Positions 9,351-15,045 of a DNA stretch of 64,000 nucleotides are shown here, piece by piece. The DNA lies in assembly GCF_000190635.1 (NCBI RefSeq), contig NC_015172.1, forward strand, positions 2,728,001 to 2,792,000, written 5' to 3'. Source of the DNA: Syntrophobotulus glycolicus DSM 8271. Its GTDB lineage: Bacteria > Bacillota > Desulfitobacteriia > Desulfitobacteriales > Syntrophobotulaceae. A program made the translations under genes and the position numbers. Positions within the stretch are counted from its first letter, which is position 1; each line of letters opens with the position of its first letter. Below the pieces are notes generated by a model. It had not been told where the DNA came from. It saw only the letters and a list, made by a program, of their open reading frames with translations, and searched no databases.

Positions 9351-9872
9351 CTACCGCATCTTGCATAACCAGAACCCTCCTTTAAACGTCTTCGGTTCAT
9401 GAAAAACCACAAAAGCATGGGGGGATTTTTCATCTATGATTGTCATCAGCTCTTTTTGCCTGTTCCTTTTCGTTAAAACATCAAGGACCAGCCTTTTCCC
9501 GTCTCTGCCGTCGCCGATCCAGGATGTGACCCCAAAACCCTGTCCCCTGATCACCTTGACCAAGGTATCGTCATCAGAGTCAATAATGACCTGAGCCGTT
9601 AAATATCCTAAAGCAAGCCTCTCTTCGATCAGGCTTCCCAGGAAAACTCCTATCCCATAACCTATACAGTAGGCAGCGATATTACATGGGCTGTTCAAGT
9701 TATTCAGAATGATTGACAGGCCCATGATATAGACAAAAATTTCTATGACGGAAAGCAGTGACGCATAAAGGCTCAGCCCCTTGATCATCAGAATAAACCT
9801 TACCGTCGTCAGGGAAACATACGTGATGTTGATTGCCATGATGATCAATACAAGCTGCCAGACTACGTTCAT
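9351..9872 (-). CDS. UPF0316/DUF2179 membrane protein (YebE-like)
   Basis: 173 aa. The N-terminal half has three hydrophobic helices (MNVVWQLVLIIMAINITYVS, a second around SLLSVIEIFVYIMG, a third around IAAYCIGYGIGVFLGS), followed by a soluble DUF2179 domain with VIRGQGFGVTSWIGDGRDGKR. The function of the family is unknown; a ligand-binding membrane regulator has been suggested for DUF2179 domains. The ATG at 9872 is chosen because AAGGTG lies 8 nt upstream; a GTG three codons earlier overlaps that site. Confidence 0.8.
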   Translation of the reverse strand: MNVVWQLVLIIMAINITYVSLTTVRFILMIKGLSLYASLLSVIEIFVYIMGLSIILNNLNSPCNIAAYCIGYGIGVFLGSLIEERLALGYLTAQVIIDSDDDTLVKVIRGQGFGVTSWIGDGRDGKRLVLDVLTKRNRQKELMTIIDEKSPHAFVVFHEPKTFKGGFWLCKMR

Positions 9873-9882
9873 TCGTATCACC

Positions 9883-10110: not shown

Positions 10111-10205
10111 ACCTGACAGAAAAGTATGTTCTGATCTGGAAGGAAGCGGTTTGTCCTTTTGTTCTTTTTTGCTTTCTTCCGTCAGGAAGGAAGCTTTTAG
10201 TTTTT
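10111..10205 (+). promoter_or_regulatory. Attenuator-like leader RNA of the TM1266-type gene (copy 1)
   Basis: Starts with ACCTGACAGAAAAG, then TGTTCTGATCTG, which can form a CAGAA/TTCTG hairpin. Segment A (GGAAGGAAGC, 10138-10147) is identical to segment C (10185-10194), and both pair with segment B (GCTTTCTTCC, 10171-10180, one mismatch). B:C forms a short-loop hairpin followed by TTTTAGTTTTT, a terminator shape, while A:B would be the antiterminator. The same opening motif precedes hydG at 10567. The layout is that of a riboswitch or protein-controlled attenuator; I do not recognise the class. Confidence 0.65.
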
Positions 10206-10223
10206 CTAAGAGGGTGTGATCAG

Positions 10224-10478
10224 ATGAAGAAAGTAGCCGTAATCAGTGCCATTCTGGAAGACCCGGAAAAGACCCAGCTCCAGTTTAATCATACGGTTGC
10301 CTCATTTAAAGGAATCATCAAGGGCCGTATGGGCTTGCCTATGCCCGACCAGGAAATTTCCGTCATCTTTATCGCGGTATTAGGAGAAACAGATGAAATC
10401 AACAGTCTTACCGGAAAGCTGGGTAAAATCGAGAAAGTATCAGTAAAGACTGCCATATCCAAAAAAGATTTTGATTAA
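10224..10478 (+). CDS. TM1266-type iron-only hydrogenase system putative regulator
   Basis: 84 aa. The sequence MKKVAVISAILEDPEK, with SFKGIIKGRMGLPMP and ISVIFIAVLGETDEINSLTGKLG, matches the small TM1266 family (TIGR03959), which has an ACT/NikR-C-like ferredoxin-like fold and is consistently found beside [FeFe]-hydrogenase maturation genes. A regulatory role is proposed, not shown. The RBS is GAGGGTG. It is followed by the hydG leader and gene. Confidence 0.85.
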   Translation: MKKVAVISAILEDPEKTQLQFNHTVASFKGIIKGRMGLPMPDQEISVIFIAVLGETDEINSLTGKLGKIEKVSVKTAISKKDFD

Positions 10479-10566
10479 TCTTTCCCCGCCGCGGCAGGGA
10501 AAATATCGGAAATCTCTTATTGCACCCTGATCGAGCATCACGTCTCAATAAAATCATATGTTTCGA

Positions 10567-10699
10567 ACCTGACAGAAAAGACCTGTTCTGATCTGAAAGA
10601 AGAGAAATCAACCGTTTGACTATCGACAGTTTGTATTTTTCTTTTTAAGAATACGGACTGAAAACGGATTGCTGCTTTTCTTCAGAGAAAAGCTTTTTT
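10567..10699 (+). promoter_or_regulatory. Attenuator-like leader RNA of hydG (copy 2)
   Basis: Opens with the same ACCTGACAGAAAAG and TGTTCTGATCTG as copy 1 at 10111. Downstream pairings are CCGTTT (10612-10617) with AAACGG (10662-10667), enclosing CAGT/ACTG and GTATT/AATAC, then a perfect 8-bp terminator hairpin GCTTTTCT-TCAG-AGAAAAGC (10674-10693) followed by TTTTTT. The GAAGAGAAA just after the conserved motif can pair imperfectly with the terminator 5' arm. A further palindrome, TTCTGAAATCAGAA, lies at 10724-10737 near the ribosome binding site. Confidence 0.65.
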
Positions 10700-10773
10700 A
10701 TTTCAGCTCCTTAACATAATTTTTTCTGAAATCAGAACACTATTAAAAACAAAGGCATGAGGAGGAAAACCAG

Positions 10774-12237
10774 ATGAGTACAAAAATTTTAGAAAAAGAA
10801 AGAACAAGCCCTGCCGATCCTGAAGTCGCTTTCATCAACAATGAACAAATCAATGAGGATCTGGCTCAGGCCAAGACAGCTCCCAAAGAAGAAGTTCAAA
10901 GGATCATCGCTAAAGGCAGAGCCGCTAAAGGTCTTACTCCCCAGGAAACGGCCATTTTGCTGGAAGTCACAGACCCGGAACTGAAAAAAGAGCTTTTTGC
11001 CGCTGCCCTCGAAGTGAAAGAAAAAATCTACGGAAAGAGAATCGTTATGTTTGCCCCTCTTTACCTCAGTAATTATTGCATTAATGAATGTACTTACTGC
11101 GGCTACCACCGTTCCAACAAGGAGATGCCCAGACGCAAGCTGACGATGGATGAAATCGCTGAAGAGATCAAGATTCTGGAGAAAATGGGACACAAGCGCC
11201 TGGCCCTGGAAACGGGTGAAGACCCTGTCAATTGTCCGATCGAATATGTTTTGGATGCCATTAAAGTGATCTATGAAACAAGTGAAGAGCAGGGGGAAAT
11301 CCGCCGGGTAAATGTCAATATTGCCGCGACAACGGTTGAAAATTACCGGAAATTAAGAGATGCCGGCATCGGTACCTATATTCTCTTTCAGGAAACCTAC
11401 CACCGGCCGACCTATAAAAAGCTCCATTTGAGCGGACCAAAGTCCTCCTATCACTATCATACCACCGCCTTTGACCGGGCAATGGAGGGCGGTATTGATG
11501 ATGTGGGTGCCGGTGTTCTATTCGGTCTTTACGACTACAAATTCGAGGTCCTTGCTTTACTTTATCATGCCCTTCACCTTGAAGAAAAATTTGGTGTCGG
11601 CCCTCATACTATCTCTGTTCCCAGAATCAGGCCTGCCTCAGGGATGAGTCTGGATCAATTCCCTTATCTTGTTCAAGATGAAGATTTCAAAACAGTTATT
11701 GCTATCCTGCGCCTGGCTGTGCCTTACACGGGAATTATCCTCTCGACCAGAGAAACTCCCGAATTCCGGGATGAAGCCATTAAGCTTGGGGTATCCCAGA
11801 TCAGCGCAGGCTCATGTACAGGTGTAGGGTCTTACAAAAAGGAATTTGCCGAAGAGAATTCCTGTTCCGCTGATCACAAGACAGATGCCACTGCCCAATT
11901 CCAGGTCAGCGATGAACGTACTCCTGAGGAAGTCTTGATCAACCTATGCTCCCAAGGCTATCTCCCCAGTTACTGTACAGCCTGCTACCGGACAGGCCGG
12001 ACAGGGGACAGGTTCATGCAGCTGGCCAAAACCGGAAATATTTGCAATGTCTGTCTACCTAACGCCCTGACTACTTTTCAGGAATACCTGATGGATTATG
12101 CTTCACCTCAGCTAAAGGAACTGGGTGAAAGAACAATTGAAAATTTTGTGGAAGAAATTCAGAATGATCGAATCAAAGAGCTGACAATAGGCAATCTTGA
12201 AAAGATTAAAGAAGGGCAGCGCGATTTCTTCGTCTGA
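10774..12237 (+). CDS. hydG: [FeFe]-hydrogenase H-cluster maturase HydG (radical SAM)
   Basis: 487 aa, usual length. CINECTYCG gives the CX3CX2C radical SAM cluster (C102, C106, C109). The C-terminal CTACYRTGRTGDRF...NICNVCLPNA supplies the cysteines of the auxiliary dangler-iron cluster. HydG splits tyrosine to make the CO and CN ligands and delivers an Fe(CO)2CN-cysteine synthon for the H-cluster. The start has GAGGAGG upstream. A long structured leader with a terminator precedes it, so expression is probably attenuated. aspA and hydF follow on the same strand; hydE and the hydrogenase itself are not in the window. Confidence 0.97.
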   Translation: MSTKILEKERTSPADPEVAFINNEQINEDLAQAKTAPKEEVQRIIAKGRAAKGLTPQETAILLEVTDPELKKELFAAALEVKEKIYGKRIVMFAPLYLSNYCINECTYCGYHRSNKEMPRRKLTMDEIAEEIKILEKMGHKRLALETGEDPVNCPIEYVLDAIKVIYETSEEQGEIRRVNVNIAATTVENYRKLRDAGIGTYILFQETYHRPTYKKLHLSGPKSSYHYHTTAFDRAMEGGIDDVGAGVLFGLYDYKFEVLALLYHALHLEEKFGVGPHTISVPRIRPASGMSLDQFPYLVQDEDFKTVIAILRLAVPYTGIILSTRETPEFRDEAIKLGVSQISAGSCTGVGSYKKEFAEENSCSADHKTDATAQFQVSDERTPEEVLINLCSQGYLPSYCTACYRTGRTGDRFMQLAKTGNICNVCLPNALTTFQEYLMDYASPQLKELGERTIENFVEEIQNDRIKELTIGNLEKIKEGQRDFFV

Positions 12238-12359: not shown

Positions 12360-13763
12360 ATGCGCATCGAAAAGGATTTTTTGGGAGAAAAACAAGTACC
12401 CGAACATGCCTATTGGGGAATTCACACTCAGCGTGCTTTAGAGAACTTCCCTTTATCCGGCCATCCTGTCCACTCCAATTTGATTAAAGCTTTGGCTTTG
12501 GTTAAAGTATCGGCAGCACAGGCCAATATGGAATTAGGATACCTGGACAATGATACGGGATATGCCATCATTGAAGCCGGTTCGGAGATCGCCGCAGGTA
12601 AGCTTGCCGACCAGTTTCCCACAGATGCCCTGCAAGGAGGGGCCGGAACCTCAACCAATATGAATGTGAATGAAGTCATTGCCAACAGGGCGACTGAACT
12701 TCTGGGGGGCGGGAAAGGCCAATATCTGGTTGATCCTTTGAACCATGTCAATATGCATCAATCGACAAATGATGTCTATCCGACCGCTTTAAGGATTGCC
12801 GCCATCAAAATGCTGCTGCCTTTAAGCGAGCAGATCGCCGAGCTGCAGGATGTCCTGCAGCAGAAAGAAGCAGAATTCGCCGGTATTTTAAAACCGGGGA
12901 GGACCCAGCTACAGGATGCCGTCCCCGTGACCCTGGGCCAGGAATTCAGCGGCTGGGCCCAGGCTGTTGCCCGGGACCGCTGGCGCATCTACAAGGTTGA
13001 GGAACGGCTGCGCCAGGTCAATCTTGGCGGAACAGCCGCTGGAACAGGTATTAATGCCCCCCGTGAATATATTTTTCTGGTCATAGAGAAATTGCGCCAG
13101 AATACCGGAATAGGTTTAGCCAGAGCCGAGAGCCTGATTGATGTTACCCAAAACGCCGATGTTTTCACGGAAGTATCCGGTCTGCTTAAGGCTGCCGCGG
13201 TGAATTTGAATAAGATCGCCAATGATTTGCGCCTGCTCTCCTCCGGTCCCTTCGCCGGCTTTGCCGAAATCCGTCTTCCGGAAAAGCAGGCAGGTTCGAC
13301 AATCATGCCCGGAAAGGTTAACCCAATTATCCCGGAAGCAGTAAATCAGGTCGCTTTTCAGGTGATTGCCGCTGATCTTGCCATCACCATGGCCTGTCAA
13401 AACGGCCAGCTGGAGATCAACCAATTTCTGCCTCTCGTCACCTATAACCTTTTACAGGCCATTGATCTTCTTGGCAAGGGTGCTTCCATTCTCGCCTACA
13501 AATGCGTCAGCGGGATCACGGTCAATGAGGAAAGATGCCTTGAGCTTGTGGAGCACAGTTTGATCACAGCTCCCATTCTCATGCCTGTTCTGGGTTATGC
13601 TAAAACAGCAGAAGTGGTTAAATACGCCCGCCGGGAAAAAGTCACTGTCCGCCAGGCGGTCAAGGATCTCGGCTACCTCAGCAGTGAAGATGCCGAGAAG
13701 GTCCTGGATTATCATCTGATGGCCAGACCCGGATCAGCGGACAAACCTTTACGTGAAGAGTAA
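12360..13763 (+). CDS. aspA: Aspartate ammonia-lyase
   Basis: 467 aa. The fumarase/aspartase signature GSTIMPGKVNP is present, with GGAGTSTNMNVNEVIANRA and HVNMHQSTNDVYPTA near the N-terminus, as in aspartases rather than fumarases. It converts aspartate to fumarate and ammonia. It lies between hydG and hydF and its 3' end abuts hydF, so it is probably part of the maturation operon. Aspartase genes recur in hyd maturation clusters of anaerobes; a link to the nitrogen of the H-cluster bridging ligand is a suggestion, not proven by this sequence. RBS is GGAGG. Confidence 0.92.
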   Translation: MRIEKDFLGEKQVPEHAYWGIHTQRALENFPLSGHPVHSNLIKALALVKVSAAQANMELGYLDNDTGYAIIEAGSEIAAGKLADQFPTDALQGGAGTSTNMNVNEVIANRATELLGGGKGQYLVDPLNHVNMHQSTNDVYPTALRIAAIKMLLPLSEQIAELQDVLQQKEAEFAGILKPGRTQLQDAVPVTLGQEFSGWAQAVARDRWRIYKVEERLRQVNLGGTAAGTGINAPREYIFLVIEKLRQNTGIGLARAESLIDVTQNADVFTEVSGLLKAAAVNLNKIANDLRLLSSGPFAGFAEIRLPEKQAGSTIMPGKVNPIIPEAVNQVAFQVIAADLAITMACQNGQLEINQFLPLVTYNLLQAIDLLGKGASILAYKCVSGITVNEERCLELVEHSLITAPILMPVLGYAKTAEVVKYARREKVTVRQAVKDLGYLSSEDAEKVLDYHLMARPGSADKPLREE

Positions 13764-13791
13764 TTCATCATCAGAAATGAGGAAGATAGAC

Positions 13792-15045
13792 ATGCAGGAT
13801 ACACCCAAAGGTTCCCGTTTGCATATATCACTCTTTGGCCGCCGAAATGCCGGTAAATCAAGTTTGATCAATGCGCTCACCAATCAGGACATCGCCCTTG
13901 TTTCCGATGTGCCGGGAACAACTACCGATCCTGTTTATAAAGCAATGGAAATTCTGCCGATCGGGCCGGTCATGCTGATTGATACGGCCGGGCTGGATGA
14001 TGTAGGCTCTCTGGGAGAGCTGAGGGTCCGGAAATCACGACAGGTTTTGGACAAAACGGATGTCACTTTGCTGGTTGTGGATTCCGGTACTGGATTTGGG
14101 GATTTTGAAAAAAATATTTATGATCTTTGCGTCGAGCGGAATATTCCCGTCCTGATTATCTTTAACAAGATTGATCTCATCAATGAAGACCAAAAAAAGG
14201 CCCTGCAAAACAACCTTGAGCAAACATACGGTCTTTCTTTGCAAAATCCGCAAACATCAGCCCCTCAGGCCCTTTTTGTCAGCTCAGTCACTAAGGAAGG
14301 GATTTTGCAGCTCAAACAGAATTTAAGCAAAATCAAACCTACCGAATGGCTTGCCCCGGCAATCGTCGGGGATCTGGTGGAACCGGGTTCCATGATTGTC
14401 CTGGTCGTCCCGATTGACATGGCTGCCCCTCAAGGCCGCTTAATCCTTCCTCAGGTTCAGACCATCCGGGATATCCTCGATCATGATTGCCTGACCGTCG
14501 TCTGCAAGGAGTATGAACTAAAAAAAGCCCTGGACTCTTTAAAGGAGCCTCCGGCCCTTGTGGTCACCGATTCCCAGGCCTTTTTGAAAGTATCTGCCGA
14601 TGTTCCCCCCGAGGTTCCCCTGACATCATTCTCTATTTTAATGGCTCGTTATAAGGGGGATTTGCTTGCTCTTGCCGAGGGTGCCAAAGCTGCGGAAAGA
14701 CTCAACCCCGGAGACAAGATCCTTATTGCCGAATCCTGTACCCATCACCAGCAGCCTGATGATATCGGCAAGGTCAAAATCCCCCGCTGGCTGAGACAAA
14801 TGGTGGGAGGGGAGCTGCATATCGATTACTCCAATGGGAGCAATTACCCGCACAACCTTGACGAATATCAACTGATCATCCATTGCGGGGGCTGTATGCT
14901 TAACCGCAAGGAAATGCTGCACCGTATTAACCAGGCCCAAAATAAAAACATTCCAATCGTCAATTATGGAATGCTTATTGCCGTAGTCCATGGTATCCTG
15001 CCCAGAGCCTTAAAACCTTTGGGAATCGACTATAAATCAATATAA
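13792..15045 (+). CDS. hydF: [FeFe]-hydrogenase maturation GTPase and scaffold HydF
   Basis: 417 aa from the ATG at 13792, which has GAGGAAG 7 nt upstream; a longer frame begins inside aspA at a GTG (13753) with no good site. The N-terminal GTPase has a P-loop GRRNAGKSS, DTAGL and NKID. The C-terminal cluster domain shows CTHHQQPDD and HCGGC, the CxH...HCxxC ligands of the [4Fe-4S] cluster. HydF is the scaffold on which HydE and HydG products are assembled before transfer to the hydrogenase. It converges with the ComA-like gene and overlaps it by 16 bp. Confidence 0.96.
   Translation: MQDTPKGSRLHISLFGRRNAGKSSLINALTNQDIALVSDVPGTTTDPVYKAMEILPIGPVMLIDTAGLDDVGSLGELRVRKSRQVLDKTDVTLLVVDSGTGFGDFEKNIYDLCVERNIPVLIIFNKIDLINEDQKKALQNNLEQTYGLSLQNPQTSAPQALFVSSVTKEGILQLKQNLSKIKPTEWLAPAIVGDLVEPGSMIVLVVPIDMAAPQGRLILPQVQTIRDILDHDCLTVVCKEYELKKALDSLKEPPALVVTDSQAFLKVSADVPPEVPLTSFSILMARYKGDLLALAEGAKAAERLNPGDKILIAESCTHHQQPDDIGKVKIPRWLRQMVGGELHIDYSNGSNYPHNLDEYQLIIHCGGCMLNRKEMLHRINQAQNKNIPIVNYGMLIAVVHGILPRALKPLGIDYKSI

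Follow-up and report, generated by a model that had tools for sequence, protein, structure and literature searches.

A hairpin element that occurs twice in the window (the whole 64,000-nt stretch of the Syntrophobotulus glycolicus DSM 8271 genome that was analyzed) recurs in the leaders of hydrogenase maturation genes of many relatives, and we consider it fairly likely that it represents a new cis-regulatory RNA family that controls [FeFe]-hydrogenase maturation genes through the protein TM1266. A further proposal, which we hold at slightly better than even, is that TM1266 is the first member of a new class of attenuation proteins that bind RNA, in which a NikR/ACT-type sensing domain would read a symmetric hairpin and couple H-cluster assembly to a metabolite. 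TM1266 has long been labeled a putative regulator of [FeFe]-hydrogenase systems, and its structure has been solved; to our knowledge, no DNA-binding domain, target or ligand was known for it before. The element offers TM1266 a candidate target and a candidate regulon of hydG, hydE, hydF, TM1266 and a few transporters, the latter being leads to the missing signal, and it suggests a way in which H-cluster assembly may be adjusted in anaerobes.

Two hairpin leaders in the S. glycolicus window

The initial annotation had noticed two motifs that occur together in front of both a TM1266-type gene and hydG, each pair leading into a terminator hairpin. The window search agreed with this, as ACCTGACAGAAAAG was found at 10111 and 10567 only and TGTTCTGATCTG at 10127 and 10584 only, with no occurrence of either on the opposite strand, and the hairpins follow at 10171-10194 and 10674-10693. 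Across the 3.41 Mb genome the combined pattern matched twice; in 24 related genomes of the family it had no match when mismatches were disallowed. Both copies reach beyond the stretches first noticed, and the two motifs are explained by being the two strands of one hairpin. Copy 1 of this element (10112..10143, plus strand), in the TM1266 leader, forms the two-fold symmetric hairpin CCU-GA-CAGA-AA-AG...CU-GA-UCUG-GA-AGG and is the proposed anti-antiterminator and putative effector site, while copy 2 (10568..10600, plus strand; CCU-GA-CAGA-AA-AGA...UCU-GA-UCUG-AA-AGA) lies between TM1266 and hydG and is proposed to control hydG. In the window search with the final covariance model R3, copy 1, itself a training sequence, scored 44.0 bits (E 1.3e-9) and copy 2 scored 42.5 bits (E 3.3e-9); the model search found no third element at significant score in the S. 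glycolicus genome.

The TM1266 gene (10224..10478, plus strand) encodes an 84-aa NikR regulatory-domain/ACT-like protein, whose family membership is given by TIGR03959 (95 bits, cut-off 60.8) and PF21699 (84.6, cut-off 27). It is followed on the same strand by hydG for the H-cluster radical SAM maturase (10774..12237; TIGR03955, 658 bits), by an aspartate ammonia-lyase-like gene of the same gene run (12360..13763; NF008909, 650 bits), and by hydF for the H-cluster maturation GTPase (13753..15045; TIGR03918, 581 bits). hydE lies apart from this locus in the same genome (3116000-3117010, minus strand), and the divergent gene 5′ of copy 1 (9351-9881, minus strand) encodes a DUF5698/DUF2179 protein. 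An aspartate ammonia-lyase-like gene between hydG and hydF, as in the window, is also present in Pelobacter carbinolicus (PMC3543383), and a similar gene occurs in locus L170 of genome G349 in the order TM1266-aspA-hydF; the enzyme might supply ammonia for the azadithiolate ligand.

In the copy 1 leader, segment A (GGAAGGAAGC, 10138..10147, plus strand) is the 3′ side of the element and the 5′ strand of the antiterminator, segment B (GCTTTCTTCC, 10171..10180, plus strand) is the shared strand, and segment C (10185..10194, plus strand) is the 3′ arm of the terminator-like hairpin (10171-10194, plus strand), with a T-run from 10195. A was complementary to B with a duplex energy of -17.2 kcal/mol, and the switch that had been read here held, A and C being the identical 10-mer, both able to pair with B. 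For the transcript up to 10186 the antiterminator was favored (-24.3 vs. -13.3 for the hairpin), while for the full leader the terminator (OFF) state was slightly better than the ON state (-28.5 vs. -27.1). In copy 2, the 3′ side of the element (10588-10599) can form a duplex of -10.4 kcal/mol with the 5′ arm of the terminator (10672-10682), the terminator hairpin itself spanning 10674..10693 on the plus strand with a T-run from 10694. Three terminator-like sites were observed vs. 0.5 expected from shuffles.

In most leaders, the 3′ side of the element could likewise pair with the 5′ arm of the terminator behind it. Duplex energies of the 3′ side were -11.3 kcal/mol with the own terminator arm, -8.7 with a swapped and -7.1 with a shuffled one, a comparison that is conservative because the terminator finder picked the wrong hairpin in some rows (e.g., w2). 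In a second layout, the RARGG side of the element lies at or next to the Shine-Dalgarno sequence of hydG (G218, G282, G436, L309 and L322, and the Thermoanaerobacter-type loci L402-L405, L411 and L412) or of an ECF gene (G102 and G145). In both layouts alike, a stabilized hairpin is predicted from the sequences to turn the gene OFF, because the 3′ side would no longer compete for the terminator arm or, where it overlaps the Shine-Dalgarno sequence, would hide that site.

A covarying element upstream of hydrogenase maturation genes

Covariance models were adopted because the exact-repeat pattern matched this genome alone. The TM1266 leaders of relatives have a core in common, with letters that change between them. 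The model R1 was built on 15 sequences and was searched against 74 genomes of the order; R2 and then R3 broadened the set. The resulting consensus, CCU-GA-N4-RA-(GG..CY)-GA-N4'-RA-RGG, is a single hairpin made of two mutually paired half-sites CUGA-N4-RARG with pseudo-two-fold symmetry, in which two 2x2 GA/RA internal loops flank a covarying 4-bp stem. When equivalent positions of the two strands were compared, eight of nine pairs agreed in their most frequent residue or residue class (C/C, U/U, G/G, A/A, R/R, A/A, R/R, G/G). The unpaired purines are conserved, and some leaders carry tandem pairs of hairpins. A kink-turn was considered for the tandem GA pairs and did not fit, both loops being 2x2 without a 3-nt bulge.

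In the 34-sequence alignment, 95.0% of the pair cells were standard vs. 71.2% in shuffles, and double changes amounted to 78 cells vs. 22.9 in shuffles, occurring at 8 of the 10 base pairs, with none of 500 shuffles as high; the covarying pairs that the initial annotation had suggested looking for were indeed found. When the partner strand was slid by 1-3 columns as a control, pairing fell to 34-51%. A strict text pattern of the hairpin matched 34 of 110 TM1266 upstream regions, compared with 3 on the reverse strand and a mean of 2.8 in shuffles.

Model E-values are rough throughout. The new R1 matches up to E 0.05 whose loci were read (L066-L068, L070-L075, L077-L079; L076 aside) all stood in front of TM1266. 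With R3, 398 genomes of the phylum were searched, and 45 matches at E<=0.001 were obtained in 40 genomes. All 45, assigned from each locus or its coordinates (the second copies of G313 and G265 to hydG via coordinates and sister species, not translation), were upstream of TM1266 (27), hydG (11), hydE (5), an ECF-S component (1) or a FecCD permease (1); among the 398 genomes, no match at this threshold fell outside these gene classes. Weaker hits at E 0.002-0.05 (L286, L289-L291, L293, L296-L298, G286) appeared chance-like on reading and were mostly intragenic. The layout of copy 2, TM1266-element-hydG, was also found in G241, G141, G096, G440 and L358, and G009 and G001 have a second copy immediately 3′ of TM1266.

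Eighty named TM1266 loci, none of them used in training, were then searched as an independent set; Clostridium, Romboutsia, Geosporobacter, Fervidicella, Caloranaerobacter, Halanaerobiales and one Syntrophales genome are represented among them. There were 40 matches at E<=1, every one on the TM1266 strand. Of the 27 with E<=0.01, 22 lay no more than 500 nt upstream of TM1266 (P 4.8e-26). Other matches of this set precede hydG (L309, L322, L358), hydF (L363, L375) or an ECF substrate-binding component of PF12822 (L378). These results indicated that the element is an RNA family of its own as modeled by R3, its hairpin supported by covariation and its link to TM1266 and hyd genes consistent at E<=0.001 in many relatives.

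Several neighborhoods of the element or of TM1266 were recorded besides. Genes for a family of small substrate-binding ECF components (PF12822, without an NCBIfam name) are repeatedly located 3′ of the element or of TM1266 (L152 4548-5108, L154 3437-3931, L155 3257-3784, and L378), and their substrate may be the signal. In L158 (G407), a genome with no HydG, the element and TM1266 head a cluster of FecCD-type ABC transporter, NifH-like and NifD/E-like genes, which suggests that TM1266 regulates more than hydrogenase maturation. Ssu/taurine-type ABC transporter genes adjoin TM1266 or hydE/hydF in L167 (8264-9262), L287 and L319, and upstream of one of them there is a weak match to the element (E 0.028). 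An open frame of about 100 aa lies between hydG and hydE in L157 (7945-8244; no Pfam match) and L160 (7312-7620), and L148 carries a TwoAYGGAY RNA of Rfam (1841-1906; 46 bits, above the gathering score) about 120 nt behind its TM1266 gene.

TM1266 as the candidate effector

TM1266 was present in 39 of the 40 element genomes vs. 209 of all 398, a co-occurrence that is weak evidence by itself because most elements precede TM1266. The exception, G339, is a 94% complete draft in which TM1266 was undetected, although two congeneric species possess the gene. Among HydG genomes, the element occurred in 36 of 182 with TM1266 and in 0 of 30 without it (P 0.0024), and when elements adjoining TM1266 were left aside, in 10 of 182 vs. 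0 of 30 (P 0.21), these counts ignoring phylogeny. Further, hydG genes far from TM1266 were compared, 20 loci per group, chosen from listed coordinates and not at random. An element just upstream of hydG was found in 14 of 20 loci of TM1266-containing genomes (E<0.004) vs. 0 of 20 in genomes lacking TM1266 (best E 1.5), with a Fisher P of 1.7e-6, and by families, which were counted by hand, in 3 of 6 vs. 0 of 15 (P 0.015). Many TM1266-containing genomes had no detected element, which may reflect additional roles of TM1266 or additional forms of the element. In the Thermoanaerobacter-like loci L126 and L132-L134, TM1266 follows a DivIVA-like, coiled-coil frame, is distant from the hyd genes and lacks its own element, and hydG elsewhere carries one.

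A rival reading is a riboswitch, in which the hairpin itself would bind a small ligand or metal (e.g., SAM, iron, an amino acid or a precursor of the H-cluster), TM1266 being merely a regulated gene or a helper. In its favor are the strong covariation, the conserved unpaired purines, the transporters among the regulated or neighboring genes (ECF-S, FecCD, Ssu-type ABC) and a hairpin size similar to that of the smallest riboswitches; however, the confinement of the remote-hydG elements to TM1266-containing genomes argues against it, as does the great variation in the 4-bp stem and the loop length beside a conserved part with two-fold symmetry, which is expected for a symmetric protein. We regard a riboswitch as rather unlikely. 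Of the triggers that the initial annotation had listed, the comparative evidence favors the TM1266 protein over a free-standing riboswitch, and the effector is probably TM1266.

Alternatively, another protein, such as a general RNA-binding protein co-inherited with TM1266, might bind the element. The TM1266 family has no known RNA binding, and basic charge, sought as support for it, was not found: the window protein is near neutral (+0.2), and the TM1266 proteins of element-containing genomes were no more basic than those of the others. Nevertheless, TM1266 is the gene most often directly 3′ of the element (27/45), as expected for autoregulation, and the same link was seen for no other gene in the loci read, which makes a different protein improbable. 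A last alternative, without any dedicated regulation, is that chance repeats lie beside ordinary terminators or that a segment was duplicated within a single genome. This would account for an exact 14-mer plus 12-mer repeat restricted to this genome and is refuted, as far as the comparative data reach, by covarying relatives in dozens of genera before the same genes on the same strand, leaving this reading hardly credible.

The AlphaFold model of TM1266 (pLDDT 97.6) matched the T. maritima TM1266 structure (2nzc, Z 15.6), the regulatory (C-terminal) domains of NikR (Z 12-14) and, next, ACT domains. As modeled, TM1266 is the NikR regulatory-domain fold without the DNA-binding part, and the symmetric hairpin would fit a protein related to a symmetric repressor. 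In the mechanism that we favor, TM1266, alone or with a ligand, would bind and stabilize the hairpin, which would free the terminator arm or hide the ribosome site and stop expression; when unbound, the 3′ strand would pair with the terminator arm and transcription would read through. In the window, TM1266 would repress its own gene via copy 1, and hydG with the genes that follow via copy 2, the ligand presumably signaling iron, amino-acid substrate or H-cluster supply.

Comparison with known regulatory systems

The initial annotation did not recognize a known riboswitch class here. Consistently, none of the 4227 families of Rfam 15 matched in the window, and over the element in the leaders of relatives no Rfam covariance model matched at gathering score or even at permissive E-values, by which a known riboswitch or leader was rejected. 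The literature search, which covered few subscription papers, found no report of the element RNA or of a TM1266 function, so a published description elsewhere is possible. On these two grounds we call the element an apparently new RNA of a known mechanistic kind, with TM1266 as a probable new RNA-binding protein family. With the riboswitches and leaders of Rfam it shares a structured leader, covariation, and a switch at a terminator or Shine-Dalgarno sequence.

The PyrR attenuators of the Bacillus pyr operon are a parallel, in which the regulator gene comes first, the attenuators are repeated within the operon, and the bound hairpin, with the binding site ARUCCAGAGAGGYU, favors termination (PMC7430163). 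Similarly, a small protein gene comes first in the gene run of the window, with one putative attenuator ahead of it and another farther along, between later genes, and the order of putative anti-antiterminator, antiterminator and terminator is repeated in the operon, as read from the two copies, segments A, B and C and the duplex energies. A conserved hairpin with a purine-rich internal loop would act as the anti-antiterminator, and binding would, by analogy, favor termination. The PyrR site itself is not resembled in sequence or structure, the consensus here being CCUGA-N4-RA..CUGA-N4-RARGG; moreover, the element is two-fold symmetric, lies also over Shine-Dalgarno sites and precedes TM1266 and hyd genes instead of pyr genes, and TM1266 is NikR-domain/ACT-like and not a phosphoribosyltransferase.

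With the nickel-responsive repressor NikR, TM1266 shares the fold of the C-terminal regulatory domain, but it is without the ribbon-helix-helix DNA-binding domain, and its proposed target is RNA. If direct binding is true, one more fold would join the few attenuation proteins, and TM1266 on its two-fold symmetric RNA hairpin may be likened to symmetric repressors on palindromic DNA.
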